Shown one piece after another: positions 1-11,857 of a DNA stretch of 11,857 bases. The position numbers and the translations under genes were made by a program. A model generated the notes under the pieces. The model searched no databases. It was not told the DNA's origin and worked only from the letters and a program-made list of their open reading frames with translations. Source of the stretch: Deltaproteobacteria bacterium (lineage in GTDB: Bacteria; Desulfobacterota; UBA8473); assembly GCA_030621455.1 (NCBI GenBank), contig JAUXHQ010000025.1, forward strand, positions 1 through 11,857. Direction: 5' to 3'. The stretch's first letter is position 1. Every line of letters begins with the position of its first letter.

Positions 1-769
1 GAAGGAACGTTTCGGGGCCACGGATCCCAGGGCCATGCTTCTCAGGCTTCATGTTCAGACAGATGGAAACACCCTCACAGCGGAGCAGGCCTTGAACAAT
101 ATCACTCGGGTAGCTTTCCAAAGTATGGCTTCTCTTTTGGGGGGTGTCAGTTCCTTACATTCCGACTCTTATGATGAAGCTATCTGCATCCCCACGGAAG
201 AATCGTCTATGATCTCCTTAAGAACCCAACAGATACTCCTTGAAGAGACTGGGATCGCAGATACGATAGACCCTCTGGCCGGGTCCTACTATGTGGAGTG
301 GTTGACCAAACAGTTAGAAGAAAAAGCCATGAAGCTTATCGAGAAGATCGATGACATGGGCGGTATGCCTGCGGCTATAGAAAGTGGCTGGCTGCAGCAG
401 CAGATGGATGATTCGGTGAACCGGTACTGGGACGGCATAAGGAAAAAGGAAAGGACTGTTGTTGGCTTGAACAAATACAGGATTGAGGAAGAGATAAGGG
501 TTAAGGCATTCAAGGTAGATCCTGCCTGTGAGAAGAAGCAGTTAACCAGGCTGAGAAAAGTTAAAGAAGAAAGGGATAATGAGAAGGTCAAGGAAAGTTT
601 GGGGGCGATCCGGGATGCAGTTAAAAAGGGGAAAAATATTGTGCCGCCAAGTATTGAAGCTGTGAAGACCTATGCCACTCTTGAAGAGGTTATGGATGCC
701 CTCTTCGGGGATAAAGTTAAAGCTTATCGAGAGGTTATCAGGACGAGACACAGACAGATCACGGTGTGA
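1..769 (+). CDS. Acyl-CoA mutase large (catalytic) subunit, C-terminal part; 5' end outside window
   Basis: This is the C-terminal 255 residues of a methylmalonyl-CoA mutase family large subunit, read from base 2 with no stop upstream; about 300 N-terminal residues lie outside the window. The family moves a carbonyl-CoA group between neighbouring carbons through an adenosylcobalamin radical. Family signatures are clear: LHVQTDG near the start keeps the His and Gln equivalent to His328 and Gln330 of the Propionibacterium enzyme, then come LNNITR, GGVSSLHSDSYDEA with the conserved Glu, and DPLAGSYYVEWLT. The protein ends without a cobalamin domain, so it belongs to the split type, like isobutyryl-CoA or 2-hydroxyisobutyryl-CoA mutase large subunits. 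The B12 subunit gene follows directly. The residues that decide substrate (Tyr89 and Arg207 positions) are outside the window, so the substrate cannot be called. ATG codons inside, such as that at 35, are not the start. Confidence 0.93.
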   Translation, partial: KERFGATDPRAMLLRLHVQTDGNTLTAEQALNNITRVAFQSMASLLGGVSSLHSDSYDEAICIPTEESSMISLRTQQILLEETGIADTIDPLAGSYYVEWLTKQLEEKAMKLIEKIDDMGGMPAAIESGWLQQQMDDSVNRYWDGIRKKERTVVGLNKYRIEEEIRVKAFKVDPACEKKQLTRLRKVKEERDNEKVKESLGAIRDAVKKGKNIVPPSIEAVKTYATLEEVMDALFGDKVKAYREVIRTRHRQITV

Positions 770-851: not shown

Positions 852-1238
852 ATGGAAAAAAAAGTGAGGGTCTTGTTGGCTAAGCCAGGCCTCGATGCCC
901 ATGATATGGGTATGAAGCTCATAGCCAGAGCGTTGAAGGATGCCGGAGCGGAGATAGTATACGGTGGTATTTACGTAACACCTGAAGAGATCACCAAGAC
1001 TGCTGTGGAAGAAGATGTGAATGTGCTGGGTTTAAGCTTCCATTCATCAACACACTTGGTGGTTGTTCCGAAGGTGATGAAGCTCTTGAAAGAAAAGGGT
1101 GGACAAGATTTGACGGTGGTTGTGGGCGGATGTATCCCTCTTGAAGACATCCCCGAGTTGAAGAAGCAAGGTGTACGGGGGGTATTCGGATCAGGGAGCG
1201 ATCTGGACGAGATTGTTAATTTTATGGTGGCACAGTAG
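852..1238 (+). CDS. B12-binding small subunit of a split acyl-CoA mutase
   Basis: This 128-residue protein is the cobalamin-binding subunit that docks on a mutase large subunit and supplies the cobalt-ligating histidine. The base-off/His-on signature D-x-H-x-x-G is present as DAHDMG at residues 15-20, with His17 as the lower cobalt ligand. It is followed by LGLSFHSS (Ser62) and VVVGGCIP (Gly92-Gly93), which line the nucleotide-tail pocket. The usual first motif reads GLDGHDRG, so Ala and Met here are mild variations. The late loop reads FGSG, like the FGPG loop of methylmalonyl- and isobutyryl-CoA mutases; from memory, it lacks the Asp that marks the 2-hydroxyisobutyryl-CoA type. I chose ATG 852 because GGAGG at 837-841 sits 10 bases upstream. 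An in-frame TTG at 819 would add 11 residues but has no ribosome site. It is the only B12 subunit in the window and lies between two large-subunit genes, so it may serve either or both. Confidence 0.93.
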   Translation: MEKKVRVLLAKPGLDAHDMGMKLIARALKDAGAEIVYGGIYVTPEEITKTAVEEDVNVLGLSFHSSTHLVVVPKVMKLLKEKGGQDLTVVVGGCIPLEDIPELKKQGVRGVFGSGSDLDEIVNFMVAQ

Positions 1239-1362: not shown

Positions 1363-1367
1363 GGAGG
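1363..1367 (+). promoter_or_regulatory. Ribosome binding site GGAGG for the divergent mutase subunit
   Basis: GGAGG lies 8 bases before ATG 1376 and inside the reading frame that would start at ATG 1337. It favours the 562-residue product over the 575-residue one. Confidence 0.7.
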
Positions 1368-1375
1368 TTGAAAAG

Positions 1376-3064
1376 ATGATTGACACGGTTGATGCCCAAA
1401 AAAGAGAGGGGGAAAAAGCCGACGGTTTAATGGAGGCATATTTTGAAAAACCAAAGAGGCTAACCACATGGTCAGGATTTCCTGTCAAGGATATCTATAC
1501 CCCGGATGATGTAAAAGGGATTGACTACGAAAGAGATGTGGCCGATGCAGGGGAATATCCCTATACACGGGGTATCCATTCAGATATGTACAGAGGCAGA
1601 TACTGGACCATGCGTGAAGGTAGTGGATATGCCAGGGGTGAAGATACCAACAAGCGGCTTAAGTTCCTTGCAAATCAGGGAGTTGGCGGTTTCAGTATCT
1701 TTCGGGACCTCCCGACCGTTTGGGGGATCGATGCGGACCACCCCTTGGCTGAAGGAGAAGTTGGAGTATGTGGCGTAAACCTTACCTCATTGAAGGATAT
1801 GGAGGAAGTGTTAGACGGCATAGCCCTAGATAAGGTCAGTGTTGCCCTACTTTGTGCCTCATCTCTGGCCCCTGTAATATTCTCTCAATATGTAACAGTT
1901 GCAGAGAAAAGAGGGATAGATATTGCGAAGTTGAGAGGAACGATTGCAAATGACCCTTTGCACTCCCGCTATTGTTATGGAAAGCTGGCGAATCCGATAG
2001 ATCTCAGTGTAAAACTCTCCGTGGATATAATAGAGTTTTGCACCAACAACATGCCCTTTTGGAATACGAATTCCGTAAATGCCTATGACATGAGAGAGAC
2101 GGGTATAAACGCACCCGAAGAAATTGCCTTCGGCTTTGGGATTGCAATGGAATATATAAGAAGAGCGCTGGAACGTGGCCTGGATGTGGACGATTTTGCA
2201 AGTAGAATATCCTTCTACTTTTCAGCAGGTATAGATTTTTTTGAGGAAATAGCTAAATTGAGGGCCGCCAGGAGGATGTGGGCAAAGATCATGAAAGAAG
2301 AATTCGGGGCAAAGAAGTCCAGCTCATGGAAGTTCAGGTTTGGCGTCCATACGGCAGGTTCTTCTCTTGTACCGCAACAGTCTTTGAACAATATTATTCG
2401 AATCTCTATAGAGGCCTTAGTTGCCGTGCTGGGTGGCGTGCAGTCTCTCCATTGTTGTTCTTATGATGAACCGATAGCCCTTCCTTCCGAAGGCTCTCAG
2501 CAGATCGCTGTCAGAACACAGCAGATTCTCGCTTATGAAACCGGGATAACAAACACTGCCGATCCTCTTGGTGGATCGTACTTTATAGAAAACCTGACGA
2601 GCAGAATTGAAGAAGAGTCGGTGAAAATAATTCAAGAAATAGACGAGATGGGTGGTATGGCAGAGGCTATGAGGAAGGAGTGGGTGGACCAAAAGATAGA
2701 CGAGGCTGCCCTCCAGTTCCAGGAGGAAATTGAAAACAAGGAACGCGTGATAGTGGGTGCAAATGCCTTTTCTCACGGTCCGGAAGAGACGACCCCGGGG
2801 GATGTACACAGGATTCCTCCTGAAACAGAGCGGAAGCAGATAGCTAACGTGAAGAGGCTTAGGGAGGAACGAGACAGGAACAAGGTCAAGGTGTCCATCG
2901 GCCGGTTGAGAGAGAAGACCCTTATGGGGGACACTGAAAACCTTATCCCCTCTATTGTTGAAGCATTAAAGGCCTATGCTACCATCGGTGAGATACAGGG
3001 CACTATTCGGGAAGCATATGGATTGAGTTATGATCCTTTCAACATACTCAACCCTTCGCATTGA
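1376..3064 (+). CDS. Divergent B12-dependent acyl-CoA mutase-like large subunit with altered active site
   Basis: This 562-residue protein is full length for a split-type mutase large subunit and has no cobalamin domain. Family landmarks run in order: YPYTRG (61-66), YWTMREGSG (76-84), GEDTNKR (88-94), DLPT (111-114), GTIANDP (188-194), MPFWN (226-230), FRFGVHTAG (320-328), LGGVQSLH (352-359), DPLGGSYFIE (396-405) and DEMGGM (423-428). My ungapped motif alignments to the Propionibacterium methylmalonyl-CoA mutase, made from memory, give Tyr89 as Gly82, Gln197 as Ala191, Arg207 as Tyr201, His244 as Asp238, His328 as Gly323, Gln330 as His325 and Asn366 as Cys361. Tyr243 (Tyr237) and Glu370 (Glu365) are kept. 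A changed substrate or a non-catalytic partner role is inferred. The frame is open throughout and the rest of the fold is conserved, so it is not an obvious pseudogene. Start ATG 1376 has GGAGG at 1363-1367; an in-frame ATG at 1337 adds 13 residues without a ribosome site. Confidence 0.9.
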   Translation: MIDTVDAQKREGEKADGLMEAYFEKPKRLTTWSGFPVKDIYTPDDVKGIDYERDVADAGEYPYTRGIHSDMYRGRYWTMREGSGYARGEDTNKRLKFLANQGVGGFSIFRDLPTVWGIDADHPLAEGEVGVCGVNLTSLKDMEEVLDGIALDKVSVALLCASSLAPVIFSQYVTVAEKRGIDIAKLRGTIANDPLHSRYCYGKLANPIDLSVKLSVDIIEFCTNNMPFWNTNSVNAYDMRETGINAPEEIAFGFGIAMEYIRRALERGLDVDDFASRISFYFSAGIDFFEEIAKLRAARRMWAKIMKEEFGAKKSSSWKFRFGVHTAGSSLVPQQSLNNIIRISIEALVAVLGGVQSLHCCSYDEPIALPSEGSQQIAVRTQQILAYETGITNTADPLGGSYFIENLTSRIEEESVKIIQEIDEMGGMAEAMRKEWVDQKIDEAALQFQEEIENKERVIVGANAFSHGPEETTPGDVHRIPPETERKQIANVKRLREERDRNKVKVSIGRLREKTLMGDTENLIPSIVEALKAYATIGEIQGTIREAYGLSYDPFNILNPSH

Positions 3065-3162: not shown

Positions 3163-4314
3163 ATGAGTCTTGAGTTTACCGCAGAACAGGACATGTTGAG
3201 AGAGAGCGTTAGGAAGATGGCCAGGGAGAAAATTGCTCCCCGTGCTGCGGAGATTGACGTTACCGATGAATTTCCATGGGATATGGTCGATCTCCTGGAA
3301 GAACAAGGAATCCTGAATATGGCAGTGCCTGAGGAGTATGGTGGGTCAGGAAGCGGTATTGTCATGATATGTGTGGCCGCGGAAGAAATTGCCAGAGCGT
3401 CCCTTTCAGTCTCTACCATGTTTATGGTGCAGACTATCGGTGGAATCCTGGTTATGAAAGCCGCCGGCACCAAAGAGCAGAAAGACTGGTATTTCCCACA
3501 GATAATCAGAGACAAGAAATTGGGGTGCCTCACCGTCACGGAGCCCGAGGCCGGTTCTGATGCAGCTTCTATGAGAACAAGGGCAGTATTGAAGGGAGAT
3601 CACTATCTGGTAAGCGGGACGAAATGCTTCATAAGTCTTGGTGGTGTAGCGAGCTTTTTTTCCTTGTTTGCAGTGACGAATCCCGGGAAGAAACATGCCG
3701 GCATTTCAGCGTTTATTGCGGAGAAAGATACGCCAGGATTCGCCATAGGTAAACACGAGAACGAAATGGGGCAGAGGGGCACTGCGATGACTGAACTCAT
3801 ATTCCAGGATGCCGTTGTTCCGGAGAAAAATCGTCTTGGCCCTGAGGGACAAGGCTTCCAGATTGTGGTGGGTGTGTTTAATCAGGCCAGGGTGCTTATG
3901 GCTGTAGAGGCCATAGGAGTGGCCCAGAGCGCTTTTGATTATTCTCTGAACTATGCAAAGGAGAGGATCTGCTTCGGTAAGCCGTTAACTGAATTCCAGG
4001 GTATTCAGTTCCAGTTTGCCGATATGATTACTCAGATAGAGGCGGCCAAGGGTCTGGTATATAGAGCGGCCAATATGATCGATAAAGGGTTAGATGTTGA
4101 GGAGATACCCAGGTTTGCGTCTATGGCTAAGTACCTCGCAACAAAGGTGGCTATGAGAGTAACCACGGAGGCTGTTGAAATACTTGGCGGTCACGGTTAT
4201 ACAAAGGATCATCCTGTGGAAAGAATGATGCGAGATGCAAAGGGCATTCAGATCTATGAAGGTCCCAGCAATATTCAAAGAATGATTATTGCAAAATCGT
4301 TATTGAGGACTTGA
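3163..4314 (+). CDS. Acyl-CoA dehydrogenase (short/branched-chain type)
   Basis: This 383-residue FAD enzyme introduces a trans-2 double bond into an acyl-CoA and passes electrons to electron-transferring flavoprotein. The length and motifs fit the SCAD/MCAD-like family. FAD and substrate contacts are seen in TEPEAGSDA (126-134). The C-terminal signature is [20 protein letters not shown] (341-360). The catalytic base is Glu366 in [10 protein letters not shown], the normal position for this family; isovaleryl-CoA and long-chain members carry the base elsewhere. Chain-length and branching preference cannot be read reliably. GGGAGG at 3151-3156 stands 6 bases before ATG 3163; a TTG at 3160 directly upstream is less likely. 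It sits 98 bases after the divergent mutase subunit and just before the PHP gene, so it probably oxidises a substrate or product of the mutase. No electron-transfer flavoprotein genes are in the window. Confidence 0.95.
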
Positions 4315-4331
4315 GGGAAAAGAGGTTTTCT

Positions 4332-4961
4332 ATGATTCCCAAGGTTGATCTGCATATTCACACAACGTTCTCTGACGGAAGGTGCACGATGCGAGAGGTC
4401 GTTAAGATAGCAGAAGAAAGAGGTATGGAATGCATAGCTTTTACTGACCATGCTTTTAATATGGATAACTTTGGCGTAAGCGAGGATACGATTGATGAAT
4501 ACATCCACGAAGCGAATCTGGTGAAGAAGGAGTCGTCCATCAAGGTTTTGATCGGACTCGAAGCAGAGATTCCAACAATAGACAAGGTTATGAGATACAG
4601 AGACAGGTTGGATCTGATTTTGATCTCCAATCATGGTCCTGTCAGGACTACTTTTTACAGTGCCATTGTCAGTATTATAAAGAACCATACTATAGATGTA
4701 ATCGCCCATCCATGGTATATCAACGACGCCGATTGGGATAAACTAATAGACGTGGCTTTAGAGTGGGATGTGGCTGTGGAGCTGAATAGCTTCAGAAAGG
4801 TACCGGAAGCACCTATAGTAGAACATATAGCCAGGAGGGGCCTGAAATTTAGTGTCGGGAGTGACGCACACTTTAAAAGTGAGATAGGAAAGGTAGGGTG
4901 GGCTTACGAGATGTTGGATAATCTGGGTTTGGGGCCTGAGTCCCTTATAAGACTACCCTAG
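4332..4961 (+). CDS. PHP-domain metal-dependent hydrolase
   Basis: This 209-residue protein is a stand-alone PHP domain, a fold of trinuclear-metal phosphoesterases that includes YcdX, histidinol phosphatases and nucleotide phosphatases. All expected metal ligands can be placed: His8 and His10 in DLHIHT, Asp15, His40 in TDH, Glu77 in GLEAE, His101 in SNHG, His126 in AHPW, and Asp178 and His180 in SDAH. The domain fills the protein, with no signal peptide or membrane segment, so it should be a soluble cytoplasmic enzyme. The substrate is unknown and no phosphoester step is obvious in acyl-CoA breakdown. ATG 4332 lies only 17 bases after the dehydrogenase stop, with GAGG at 4322-4325, which implies co-transcription and possibly translational coupling. 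A TTG at 4311 overlapping that stop would add 7 residues and is less likely. Confidence 0.9.
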   Translation: MIPKVDLHIHTTFSDGRCTMREVVKIAEERGMECIAFTDHAFNMDNFGVSEDTIDEYIHEANLVKKESSIKVLIGLEAEIPTIDKVMRYRDRLDLILISNHGPVRTTFYSAIVSIIKNHTIDVIAHPWYINDADWDKLIDVALEWDVAVELNSFRKVPEAPIVEHIARRGLKFSVGSDAHFKSEIGKVGWAYEMLDNLGLGPESLIRLP

Positions 4962-5116: not shown

Positions 5117-6553
5117 GTGAGTCATAACTTCGCAACAACTGAGAAGATGAAAGATAATCTTGACGCCATTTTCCACCCCAAGTCCATAGCCCTCGTTGGG
5201 GTCTCTCCTGACCCGCATAATTGGGCAGGTCAAACAATCCCCGAGGCTATCCTTGACTTCGGGTATGATGGGGATGTCTGTTTTGTGAGTAGAAGGACGA
5301 ATAAAATGTACGGGTTCAAAACGTATCCGAGTATCAGAGAAATACCCGGCCCGGTAGATTTGGTCATGTGTAGTGTTCCTGCTCCCTTCACTCCTCACAT
5401 TATGGAGGACTGTGTCGTTAAAGGCGTAAAGGCGGTTCATTTTTTTACTTCCGGCTTCAGTGAGATCGGTACGGAAGAGGGATGCAAATTGGAGGAAAAG
5501 ATCACCCGGATAGCCCGTAGTAACGGTATTAGAGTCATAGGGCCGAACTGTACCGGTCTGTACTGCCCGGAGTCAAAATTGTCCTTCAGCCCGTTATTCC
5601 CCAAGGAGAGAGGATCGGTTGGATGTCTCGTTCAGAGTGGTGGTCACAGCATACGGTTGGTCCGAACAGGGGCTGCGCGAGGGCTGAGATTCAGCAAAGT
5701 CGTGTCTTACGGCAATGGTTGTGACCTCAATGCGACTGATTTCCTGGAGTATCTGGGCAGTGATCCCGCTACAAAGGTTATAGCTGCGTACGTTGAAGGT
5801 ACGAAAGACGGACGAAGGCTTGCGGAGGTATTGAAGAAGACCGCTGAGATGAAACCGGTGGTACTCCACAAAGGGGGTCACACACAGGCCGGAACAAGGG
5901 CGGCTGCTTCTCATACCGGAGCGATTGCCGGTGAGGCGAGGACATGGGATGCCCTTTTCAGACAGACGGGAGTAATTCGTGTCCGCACTATAGATGAGCT
6001 TGTAGACGTGATTTTACCCTTCGCATTTATGCCTCCTTTGAAAGGGAAGAATGTAGCTGTCATAGGTTATGGGGGAGGTATGAGTGTCCAGGCAGCCGAT
6101 GACTGTGAGGGTGCCGGTTTGTCGGTTCCCTTGTTACCCACTGCCATACAAGATGAATTGAGGAGCTTTACTCCCGACGCCAATAACTCTGTCAGAAACC
6201 CTGTAGATACTCAATGGCTGGTTTGGGATCCTGACAAGTTTGTTGATACGGTGAGGATTGTTTCAACATGGGACGGAGTCGATTCTCTAATATTATACTT
6301 GCCATTGGACATGTTTCACATTAAGAACGAGGAGGAAGTATTAAATCGAATGGCGGAGTCGGTTATCGGTTCCAGGGACATCTGCTCAAAACCGATAGTG
6401 ATCGTATTCCACCAGGGTATCTCTCCCGAAATCCTTGTCAAGAGCATTGCAGTTCAGGATAGGTTCTGCTCTCTAAGGCTACCTGTCTATCCCACTCTTG
6501 GAAGGGCTGCTACAGCGATTAGCAAGTTCATCGGTTACCATCAGGACCACTAA
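5117..6553 (+). CDS. NDP-forming acyl-CoA synthetase alpha-type protein (CoA-binding and ligase domains, no ATP-grasp)
   Basis: This 478-residue protein resembles the alpha subunit of ADP-forming acetyl/acyl-CoA synthetases, which interconvert acyl-CoA plus ADP and phosphate with acid, CoA and ATP through a phosphohistidine. A CoA-binding Rossmann domain opens with FHPKSIALVGVS (19-30) and runs to about residue 145, ending at IGPNCTGLYCPE (141-152). A succinyl-CoA-ligase-like domain follows, with VQSGGHS, VSYGNGCDLNATDFLEYLGSD and the likely phosphorylated His266 in ASHTGAIAG (264-272). A third domain begins near GKNVAVIGYGGGMS (310-323) and has the NPVD motif (361-364). The ATP-grasp beta part that binds the nucleotide is missing and no gene for it is in the window. 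It may lie elsewhere, or the protein may use a partner in trans. GTG 5117 has AAGGGG at 5105-5110. ATG 5147 is an alternative start with a poorer site, and the conserved domain would survive either way. Confidence 0.88.
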   Translation: MSHNFATTEKMKDNLDAIFHPKSIALVGVSPDPHNWAGQTIPEAILDFGYDGDVCFVSRRTNKMYGFKTYPSIREIPGPVDLVMCSVPAPFTPHIMEDCVVKGVKAVHFFTSGFSEIGTEEGCKLEEKITRIARSNGIRVIGPNCTGLYCPESKLSFSPLFPKERGSVGCLVQSGGHSIRLVRTGAARGLRFSKVVSYGNGCDLNATDFLEYLGSDPATKVIAAYVEGTKDGRRLAEVLKKTAEMKPVVLHKGGHTQAGTRAAASHTGAIAGEARTWDALFRQTGVIRVRTIDELVDVILPFAFMPPLKGKNVAVIGYGGGMSVQAADDCEGAGLSVPLLPTAIQDELRSFTPDANNSVRNPVDTQWLVWDPDKFVDTVRIVSTWDGVDSLILYLPLDMFHIKNEEEVLNRMAESVIGSRDICSKPIVIVFHQGISPEILVKSIAVQDRFCSLRLPVYPTLGRAATAISKFIGYHQDH

Positions 6554-8805: not shown

Positions 8806-9975
8806 ATGGGGAATGATCCAGTTGACATCACAAAATTAGACGAACATTTTCCGATAATTACGGAAGAGGCCCTTCAGGCTTTGAGGAGTCGGATTGGCAA
8901 GAAGGTTGAAAGTACGGTTGAACCCTGGGTCCGGGAGGCCACCGCAGATTCAATTCGGCACTATGCCTATGGAATCGGAGACGATAACCCACTCTGGACA
9001 GACCCGGACTATGCGGCCGATAGCCTTTATGGTACCCTCATTGCTCCCCCGACCTTTCTTTATGCGACGGACAGAATCATTAGTGGTTACGTTGGAGGCC
9101 TTCCGGGAGTACACGCCATGTTTGCCGGAAGCGACTGGCGCTGGTACCTACCAATAGAGGTGGGTACAAGAATCCAGGTGGAAGTGTACCTAAAAGACCT
9201 CGTGGAGCATGAGACGCGTTTTGCCGGTCGCGCGATTCAGCAGATTTACCACGGCGACTTTTTCGATAATGATGGAAAAAAGTTGGCCGAGTGCGACTCC
9301 TGGTGCTTCCGGACGGAGCGTGCAACGGCCAGGGAACAGGGAAAGAAATACAAGGACCTTAGACCCCGGAAGGTATACAGCAAGGAAGAGATCGAGAGGA
9401 TCACCGAATTATACGATAAGGAGGAGGTCCGAGGTAATAATACCCTTTACTGGGAGGACGTGAATGAAGGGTCTGTCCTCCCTACGATCCTCAAAGGCCC
9501 GATGACCGTCACCGGCTTTATCGCATTCGTACAGGGATGGGGAGGCCTTTATATCCGGTCCCATAAGATTGCCTTCCAACAATACGGGAAGCACCCCGGA
9601 CTTGGAATCCCGAATGCACACGGAATTCCGGATGTGCCCGAGAGGGTCCACTGGGAGGACGACTTCGCACAGGCTATCGGAACACCCGGGGCCTACGATT
9701 ATGGCCCTGAGAGGGTATCCTGGATGGGCCATCTGATGACGAACTGGATCGGAGATAATGGTTGGCTTTCCAGACTCCGTGCCCGGATCGTCCGTCACAA
9801 TCCGGTGGGGGATATTCTTTATATCTCCGGTAGGGTGAATCGGAAGTATCTGGAAGGAGACAGAGGACACGTTGAATGCAAACTAGTCGCCAGGAACCAG
9901 GATGGTGAGCTGTCTTGCGAGGCAGAGGCCACCGCCATCCTTCCACTGAGAGGTGAAAAAACCCCTTTACGCTAG
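8806..9975 (+). CDS. Two-domain MaoC/FAS1-like acyl dehydratase (hydratase-2 type)
   Basis: This 389-residue protein has a double hot-dog layout. The N-terminal half resembles the MaoC N-terminal (FAS1-like dehydratase) domain, with HYAYGIGDDNPLWTDPDYA at residues 52-70. It keeps the GDxNP core, but the position that is His in the R-hydratase motif D-x4-H is Trp64, as is common in this N-terminal family. The C-terminal half (about 215-385) contains PERVHWEDDFAQ, GAYDYGPERVSW and FxVVGD-like VGDILYISGRV, a pattern found in bacterial acyl dehydratases of unknown substrate. The probable job is hydration of a 2-enoyl-CoA or the reverse dehydration. AAGGGAG at 8793-8799 stands 6 bases before ATG 8806. 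It follows the synthetase by 134 bases and precedes an acyl-CoA dehydrogenase, consistent with one beta-oxidation-like pathway. Which half holds the catalytic dyad cannot be settled by eye. Confidence 0.85.
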   Translation: MGNDPVDITKLDEHFPIITEEALQALRSRIGKKVESTVEPWVREATADSIRHYAYGIGDDNPLWTDPDYAADSLYGTLIAPPTFLYATDRIISGYVGGLPGVHAMFAGSDWRWYLPIEVGTRIQVEVYLKDLVEHETRFAGRAIQQIYHGDFFDNDGKKLAECDSWCFRTERATAREQGKKYKDLRPRKVYSKEEIERITELYDKEEVRGNNTLYWEDVNEGSVLPTILKGPMTVTGFIAFVQGWGGLYIRSHKIAFQQYGKHPGLGIPNAHGIPDVPERVHWEDDFAQAIGTPGAYDYGPERVSWMGHLMTNWIGDNGWLSRLRARIVRHNPVGDILYISGRVNRKYLEGDRGHVECKLVARNQDGELSCEAEATAILPLRGEKTPLR

Positions 9976-11239: not shown

Positions 11240-11857
11240 ATGCAGGCAAAATTCCGTTATCTTGAGGACTATGAGATTGGTCAGGAAGGACAAACGCTGA
11301 GTCGAACCGTAGGTGAGGCTGATGTATCAACCTTTGCTTACATCACTGCCGACTATGCCACCGTGCATCTGGATCGTCATATTAGTGCCGAGGGGCCTTA
11401 TGGAGAGAGGATCGCCCATGGGCTTCTCGGTTCAAGCCTTGTTCCCGGGATGATATCCCAGACTGCGCCTCAAATAGTGGGAAGAGACATTCCGGAAGCC
11501 GTCTTCTGTGGTTTTGAGACCAACTATCGAGGTCCCATCAAGGTAGGAGACAGCATCAGGATCAAGTGGCAAATTTCAGACAAGGTAGATGATCCGGTCC
11601 AGGATGGTTTTGGTCTTGTTAAAACCGGTTTCCAGGTTGTCAACCAGGATGGAGCTTCCGTATATAATGGTACATTAACTACCAAGGTTAAGAAAGAATC
11701 GGCTGGGGGGGATAGACTGCAGGTGAAAGCGGGGGTCCCCTGGCAGATTAGCTGGTTCGTTCTGGACACGGAAAAGACATACTACCTGGAAGACCTTGTG
11801 GTTGGCGAAGGAGAGGAGATAAAAGGGCGGACGTTTACTGAAGCCGATATCGTCAAT
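11240..11857 (+). CDS. Tandem MaoC-domain (hot-dog) acyl hydratase, 3' end outside window
   Basis: The visible 206 residues hold one full MaoC-like hot-dog domain (about 1-150) and the start of a second. The first domain opens with FRYLEDYEIGQE and has Asp38 and His43 spaced as in the catalytic D-x4-H dyad (DYATVH), followed by GERIAHGLL (55-63), a hallmark of hydratase-2 enzymes. The usual NP between the Asp and His is missing. After a linker, YYLEDLVVGEGEEIKGRTFTE (181-201) restarts the same domain pattern, so the whole gene should be about 300 residues or more. The predicted reaction is reversible hydration of an enoyl-CoA, but some tandem members act on other acyl thioesters. AAGGAGGG at 11227-11233 stands 6 bases before ATG 11240. 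The reading frame is open to the window end. Confidence 0.88.
   Translation, partial: MQAKFRYLEDYEIGQEGQTLSRTVGEADVSTFAYITADYATVHLDRHISAEGPYGERIAHGLLGSSLVPGMISQTAPQIVGRDIPEAVFCGFETNYRGPIKVGDSIRIKWQISDKVDDPVQDGFGLVKTGFQVVNQDGASVYNGTLTTKVKKESAGGDRLQVKAGVPWQISWFVLDTEKTYYLEDLVVGEGEEIKGRTFTEADIVN

Follow-up and report, generated by a model that had tools for sequence, protein, structure and literature searches.

What becomes of a B12-dependent acyl-CoA mutase when most of the residues that line its active site have been exchanged? The question is posed by a gene at positions 1376-3064 (forward strand) of a Deltaproteobacteria contig (assembly GCA_030621455.1, contig JAUXHQ010000025.1), whose host is described as an anaerobic subsurface bacterium; the stretch of 11,857 nucleotides that we analysed is referred to here as the window. 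The product falls in a conserved acyl-CoA mutase clade whose active site has been rebuilt and for which the literature searched gives no characterisation; the clade lies within an exceptional family expansion and is set apart from the three types compared: methylmalonyl-CoA mutase (MCM), isobutyryl-CoA mutase (ICM), and 2-hydroxyisobutyryl-CoA mutase (HCM). Neither the clade nor a comparable mutase expansion is described in the literature searched, most subscription papers having been outside its reach.

That the 562-residue product is a large subunit of the adenosylcobalamin (AdoCbl)-dependent acyl-CoA mutase superfamily is plain from its profiles, TIGR00641 (575.7 bits against a cut-off of 303.8) and PF01642 (595 bits), and from its MM_CoA_mutase large-subunit fold. 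An AlphaFold2 (AF2) model was compared with solved mutases by VIA-align, and solved HCM and MCM were also compared by pairwise hidden Markov model (HMM) alignment; the best solved relative is HCM, while identity to nine MCM- and ICM-type sequences (alignment A1) is 43-49%. A sequence-only reading of the window had held that fold, full length, and open frame were kept, and this is borne out by the profiles, the model comparison, and the intact open reading frame (ORF). The mechanical ORF opens at 1337; we place the start at 1376 because of the GGAGG at 1363-1367 and the 562-residue length of the eight nearest homologs. The gene and its pocket residues are as follows, pocket positions being numbered after MCM here and below unless window numbering is stated.

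1363 to 1367, forward strand: Shine-Dalgarno-like GGAGG, seen in the sequence 8 nucleotides 5' of the ATG at 1376
1376 to 3064, forward strand: acyl-CoA mutase large subunit, 562 residues, with a rewired pocket (TIGR00641, PF01642, Protein Data Bank matches, AF2 model)
1619 to 1621, forward strand: Gly82, at MCM Tyr89 (HMM and multiple alignment)
1703 to 1705, forward strand: Arg110, at MCM Phe117 (alignment), accompanying the loss of Gln197
1946 to 1948, forward strand: Ala191, at MCM Gln197 (alignment)
1976 to 1978, forward strand: Tyr201, at MCM Arg207 (alignment)
2087 to 2089, forward strand: Asp238, at MCM His244 (alignment)
2342 to 2344, forward strand: Gly323, at MCM His328 (alignment)
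2348 to 2350, forward strand: His325, at MCM Gln330 (alignment)
2453 to 2458, forward strand: Cys360-Cys361, at MCM Thr365-Asn366 (alignment)
2468 to 2470, forward strand: Glu365, at MCM Glu370 (alignment), present in all 273 aligned large subunits

Seven of these replacements had been named from sequence alone, with residue numbers and coordinates that proved exact; Arg110 was absent from that list. Their equivalence to MCM positions holds in the pairwise HMM alignments with HCM and MCM and in the multiple alignment, and ungapped motifs, the positions of the barrel strands, and structural end points concur, leaving no offset. Beyond the seven, Phe117 is replaced by Arg, Ser164 by Ala, Thr166 by Leu, Phe287 by Tyr, Trp334 by Ser, and Thr365 by Cys. 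Retained are Tyr243, Glu247, Arg283, Ser362, His364, Glu370, Arg82, Thr85, and Arg87. In MCM, Glu370, Tyr243, and Arg283 have known roles in radical generation, the Tyr89/Arg207 pair drives homolysis and holds the carboxylate, and His244 is important for catalysis. A structure of the H244A mutant of MCM exists (1e1c).

The replacements are shared by a large group of proteins. In a midpoint-rooted FastTree tree of 273 large subunits (those of at least 450 residues among 285 non-redundant sequences), the window protein falls in a clade of 136 members and, within it, a subclade of 14, each with support of 1.0; an IQ-TREE tree of 96 large subunits recovers the clade (31 members) and the subclade (5 members), each with a Shimodaira-Hasegawa-like approximate likelihood ratio support of 100. 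HCM, human MCM, and the canonical MCM-type and ICM-type sequences lie outside the clade in both trees, so that, with those types as the characterised set compared, the protein sits in no characterised clade. Asp244 is found in 131 of the 136 members (Asn in the other 5), Gly or Ala328 in all 136, His330 in 132, and Cys366 in 135, although such counts lean toward the window type, because the clade's 118 non-redundant database proteins were chosen by likeness to the window protein. Glu370, Tyr243, and Arg283 are each present in 136 of 136. The four changes occur together in 129 clade members versus none of the 137 other large subunits, where single changes are scattered (D244 in 11, G/A328 in 3, C366 in 7). 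Position 89 is Val, Leu, Gly, or Ala in 134 of the 136, and position 207 is Gly or Tyr in 133. A metal site built from Cys334, Cys365, Cys366, and His330 was considered and dropped: residue 334 is Ser in 19 of the 136 clade members and in the window protein.

The window subclade carries a variation of its own, G/A89-R117-A197-Y207, in all 14 members. Across the clade, Arg117 accompanies Ala or Ser197 in 28 of 30 sequences and Gln or His197 in 0 of 106, a contrast among related sequences that may reflect two events; the pattern suggests an anchoring role that passes to Arg117 when Gln197 is lost.

The clade extends beyond the host lineage. Among the best 120 of 8000 database homologs, 16 have named organisms: 9 are Deltaproteobacteria, Desulfobacteria/Desulfobacteraceae, or Thermodesulfobacteriota, 3 are Pseudomonadota, 3 are Dehalococcoidia, and 1 is labelled bacterium. 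The Dehalococcoidia members (P0085, P0094, P0103) have the signature V-H/Q-G-D-G-H-C-C. In a sample of 395 genomes from the phylum, 19, the host's own included, hold a match at E <= 1e-170. A Tectomicrobia mutase (L084) that lies outside the clade keeps Y-Q-R-H at 89/197/207/244 and has F-G-V-C at 328/330/365/366; to judge from its sequence, it is an independent rewiring of the 328-366 side only.

Within the family, comparison of the host genome (G000) with seven relatives (G001-G007) shows that the gene is under purifying selection and is not decaying. Orthologs 80-84% identical are intact in G002, G003, G004, G005, and G007, and pairwise dN/dS over the six intact genes (15 pairs) is 0.056-0.094. 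Decay is thereby ruled out for the five intact orthologs; the G006 copy, split between two frames in the assembly, stands outside that count. The sequence-only reading had spoken of selection for something new; its interpretation as a whole is partly supported.

The genes beside the mutase speak to its setting.

2 to 769, forward strand: C-terminal part (255 residues) of another, distinct mutase large subunit, truncated where the contig begins (PF01642)
852 to 1238, forward strand: B12-binding small subunit, 128 residues, with the loop KPGLDAHDMG (TIGR00640, 146.6 bits against a cut-off of 57.45; PF02310; motif scan)
3163 to 4314, forward strand: acyl-CoA dehydrogenase, next in the operon (PF00441, PF02771, PF02770)

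The small subunit has the DxHxxG loop and its upstream Lys intact (K-x3-D-x-H-x2-G). It reads GLSFHSSTHL at what we take to be the counterpart of the MCM SxL motif near the cobalamin tail, and its pocket for that tail may be altered. The partial large subunit is 84-87% identical over 255 residues to a full-length gene in G003, G004, and G007, and its relatives read V-Q-N-A-H-Q-S-D-E at 89/197/207/244/328/330/365/366/370. Those three genomes preserve the full series of partner, B12 subunit, mutase, and dehydrogenase; in G000 the contig begins within the partner gene, in G005 the partner is interrupted and the dehydrogenase ORF is partial, and the G006 contig ends within the B12 gene. The dehydrogenase, 83-89% identical, occupies the same place in G003, G004, G006, G007, and G005 (there as the partial ORF), but in G002 it does not adjoin the mutase gene. 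The layout recurs, with a partner of another type, in the sister subfamily V-A-G-D-A-H-S-C: in G001, in G005, and, as far as the contig runs, in G006. Gene picks at related loci favour long ORFs and can miss short genes, some of which were recovered by tblastn. No riboswitch or other known RNA scored at the gathering threshold in the window or seven related loci.

Several further features of these loci were seen in passing. Two to three large subunits share or alternate with B12 subunits at G000:C46 (L117), G004:C2 (L131), G004:C6 (L138), and G318:C189 (L193). In G004 (L133, 10516-15549) the mutase operon is immediately preceded by genes for a CdhA-like CO dehydrogenase alpha subunit and for two LivK-like binding proteins, and the same clusters stand in identical order in G007 (L156). 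Farther along the window are a PHP-domain phosphoesterase-like ORF amid acyl-CoA genes (4311-4961); a lone alpha-type subunit of an ADP-forming acyl-CoA synthetase, with CoA-binding and flavodoxin-like domains (5117-6553), for which no ATP-grasp partner was found among the nine window ORFs scanned; a hot-dog dehydratase ORF of 389 residues with FAS1-like and MaoC matches (8806-9975); and a second ORF, MaoC-like by eye, which runs past the window end (11240-11857).

Clade genes elsewhere likewise sit in catabolic acyl-CoA settings. We examined 12 clade loci from 11 genomes outside the family, with gene clusters typed by one representative each. D244, G/A328, H330, and C366 are present in 11 of the 12. 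A B12 subunit adjoins the mutase or lies one gene off in 9, and for 2 of the other 3 a contig edge falls there. An acyl-CoA dehydrogenase occurs in 6, at least one acyl-CoA dehydrogenase, enoyl-CoA hydratase, SDR, or thiolase cluster gene in 9, and a MeaB-cluster gene in 3 (G385, G318, G393), the G318 gene being the one typed as MeaB. Within the family, clade genes of other subfamilies sit among acyl-CoA genes, frequently in the company of a thiolase, a ChsH2-type OB protein, and FAS1/MaoC-like dehydratases. A FAD enzyme of amine-oxidase/NAD_binding_8 type (~505 residues) adjoins the clade mutase in G386, G373, G008, G082, and G018 (L188, L189, L190, L191, L197), and is possibly part of its pathway.

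What, then, might the window protein do? We think it probable that it is the substrate-binding large subunit of a working AdoCbl-dependent acyl-CoA mutase, which would act on a bulky acyl-CoA without MCM-style carboxylate binding and feed beta-oxidation. Because Glu370, Tyr243, Arg283, and the B12 loop are retained, radicals are likely generated with AdoCbl as in MCM; the Tyr89/Arg207 pair is gone, and substrate handling must therefore differ from that of MCM. Together with the 852-1238 subunit, the protein would perform Co-C homolysis and, like MCM, ICM, and HCM, shift the CO-SCoA group from one carbon to its neighbour, but on a larger acyl group that no Tyr89/Arg207 pair would grip. Asp244 and His330 would replace His244 and Gln330 beside the thioester and the adenosyl group, where the two together could act on the thioester carbonyl in place of His244. 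With small residues at positions 89, 328 (Gly/Ala), and 366 (Cys), the pocket would be larger, and in the window subclade Arg117 would substitute for Gln197. Our best guess for the substrate is a branched or quaternary-carbon acyl-CoA, alicyclic or alkyl, and the simplest reading of the pathway is that its product would be oxidised by the neighbouring acyl-CoA dehydrogenase. Of the two possibilities that the sequence-only reading had offered, a bulky or non-carboxylate substrate and a structural partner without catalysis, we thus favour the former.

Known mutases offer partial parallels. MCM (1req, 2xij) shares the fold and, among the retained residues, Tyr243, Arg283, Glu247, Glu370, Arg82, Thr85, and Arg87, whereas all seven named positions are replaced in the window protein, which has Gly at 89, Tyr at 207, and Asp at 244 and falls outside MCM-type sequences in the trees. 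The ICM type (IcmA, IcmF) resembles our proposal in taking an acyl-CoA without a free carboxylate, and a canonical copy is encoded in the host genome at C51. Aligned ICM-type sequences, however, keep H244, H328, Q330, and N366 and group with MCM in the tree, and the window protein has Gly89, Tyr207, and Asp244 in place of Phe89/Gln207, which we take to be the ICM-type label. The HCM large subunit (HcmA, 4r3u) keeps Q197, H244, H328, Q330, and N366 and has Ile at 89, none of which is found in the window protein; the latter has Gly at 89, Asp at 244, and Phe where HCM has what we take, in number and role, to be Asp117. One study reports that rational first-shell changes in an HCM-type mutase yielded inactive protein (PMC11599936). 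A useful functional analogy is IaaGH of Aromatoleum, which acts on phenylsuccinyl-CoA and has an acyl-CoA dehydrogenase, IaaF, as the next enzyme, and thus is a bulky-acyl mutase in a comparable order; it differs in acting on a dicarboxylic CoA ester (PMC8360864).

Some observations weigh against a working mutase of this kind. The window protein has Asp where MCM has His244, and 7 of the 136 clade members deviate from the D-G/A-H-C core. So does the sole exception among the loci outside the family, L196 of G076, which reads N244-A328-Q330-T366. Within the family, a B12 gene stands beside other clade genes in only 2 of 13 stretches, with one more in the same run, short genes being missable. In G002 neither partner nor dehydrogenase lies beside the gene, and the B12 subunit is matched at residues 43-126 only, the first 42 missing; that copy may be on its way out or reliant on another B12 subunit. 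Finally, a second large subunit stands beside the subclade gene in 5 of 6 genomes with a readable flank (cut in G000, interrupted in G005).

The host has many mutases besides the window enzyme. The 1.92 Mb draft of G000 (78% complete) has 26 PF01642 matches and G001-G007 have 13-30 each, some of them fragments; the window protein finds 0-7 matches in each of 22 other genomes of the phylum, and outside the family a first-look count of PF01642 goes no higher than 16 among the matches listed (395 genomes, at most 3 candidates scored per genome). A chimeric bin is an unlikely source of the excess, as it recurs in G001-G007, including G004 (100% complete, 50 contigs). All of Q197, H244, H328, Q330, and N366 are kept in 2 of 21 scored large subunits of G000 and 4 of 28 of G004 (5 of 26 matches in G000, as fragments or split pieces, and 1 of 29 in G004 were unscored), versus 73 of 74 loci outside the family, which were picked by likeness to the window protein. 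Pocket rewiring is therefore a lineage-wide radiation, of which the window enzyme is one product. Glu370, the only pocket position counted with full retention, is present in all 49 scored large subunits of G000 and G004. Glycyl radical enzymes (PF02901) number 27 matches in G001, 13 in G000, 11 in G003, 7 in G004, and 2 in G006, with none in the drafts of G002, G005, and G007 (98, 90, and 73% complete). At least three in G000 (C288, C3, C106) match the alkylsuccinate synthase MasD (9o8u) at 1294-1327 bits. Loci of this parallel glycyl radical enzyme expansion include L124, L216, and L217; the C288 gene adjoins, convergent on the opposite strand, a mutase with Asp244. In view of this complement, the host probably degrades hydrocarbons and complex acids under anaerobic conditions. 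The glycyl radical enzyme frames at G000:C226 and G001:C273 each contain one TAG and one TAA.

Could the gene arrangement point to a different enzyme altogether? In a heteromeric mutase, the 2-769, 852-1238, and 1376-3064 products would form one enzyme, two large subunits sharing a single B12 subunit and each shaping or filling the other's site. The conserved gene order in G003, G004, and G007, the cut or interrupted partner in G000 and G005, the layout repeated by the sister subfamily, and a partner that has Ala for His244 yet retains Q197, H328, and Q330 all suit such a complex. Even so, we regard it as doubtful: the partner type is absent from G002 (98% complete) and interrupted in G005, where the window-type gene is intact in both, and only G318 (with two) has further large subunits among the 12 loci outside the family. 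The G002 evidence is weaker than it looks, because the dehydrogenase and other operon parts are gone there too. The neighbouring large subunit, along with the loss of most known catalytic and substrate contacts, would also fit a non-catalytic structural role like that of MutA, the small chain of heterodimeric MCM, which has lost catalytic residues and adjoins another large subunit. The window protein scores 195.2 bits against the TIGR00642 cut-off of 617.25, however, and its structural match to MutA is lower; such a role is unlikely.

The MasD-like genes invite another thought, that the protein rearranges alkyl- or arylsuccinyl-CoA in the degradation of hydrocarbons by fumarate addition, or that it is an indoleacetate-type mutase like IaaGH; one report gives the name mcmA for alkylsuccinate rearrangement (PMC10811727). 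The glycyl radical enzymes of G000 and the Asp244 mutase beside C288 lend this some appeal, but that mutase falls in another clade in both trees and the window has no glycyl radical alkylsuccinate synthase gene. Intact window-type genes persist in the three drafts that have no PF02901 match, and the gene is therefore probably not tied to fumarate addition, an assignment we consider improbable. An ordinary MCM, ICM, or HCM seen through offset alignments is more improbable by far: the identity to MCM- and ICM-type sequences and the kinship with HCM would allow it, whereas the concordant motifs, strand positions, and end points, and the exclusion of the protein from those types by both trees, contradict it.

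Beyond the mutase proposed for the window gene, a broader picture may be ventured, tentatively and as something well short of probable. The D244-G/A328-H330-C366 clade might be an undescribed class of B12 mutase with a re-invented acid-base set, opening quaternary and ring carbons of recalcitrant acids to anaerobic beta-oxidation; the window-subclade enzyme might be a three-polypeptide complex of two different large subunits and one B12 subunit; and both might be products of the lineage-wide mutase radiation (13-30 PF01642 matches per genome), which in part of the lineage ran alongside a radiation of glycyl radical enzymes. To our knowledge, work on this enzyme class usually takes His244 and the contacts on the adenosyl side to be fixed. 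Here, a large conserved clade, and dozens of paralogs in one bacterial family, have such "fixed" residues replaced naturally, and the residues truly needed for radical acyl-CoA rearrangement become directly testable. The likely substrate range of B12 mutases is widened, and these enzymes may explain how subsurface anaerobes pass branched and quaternary carbons.
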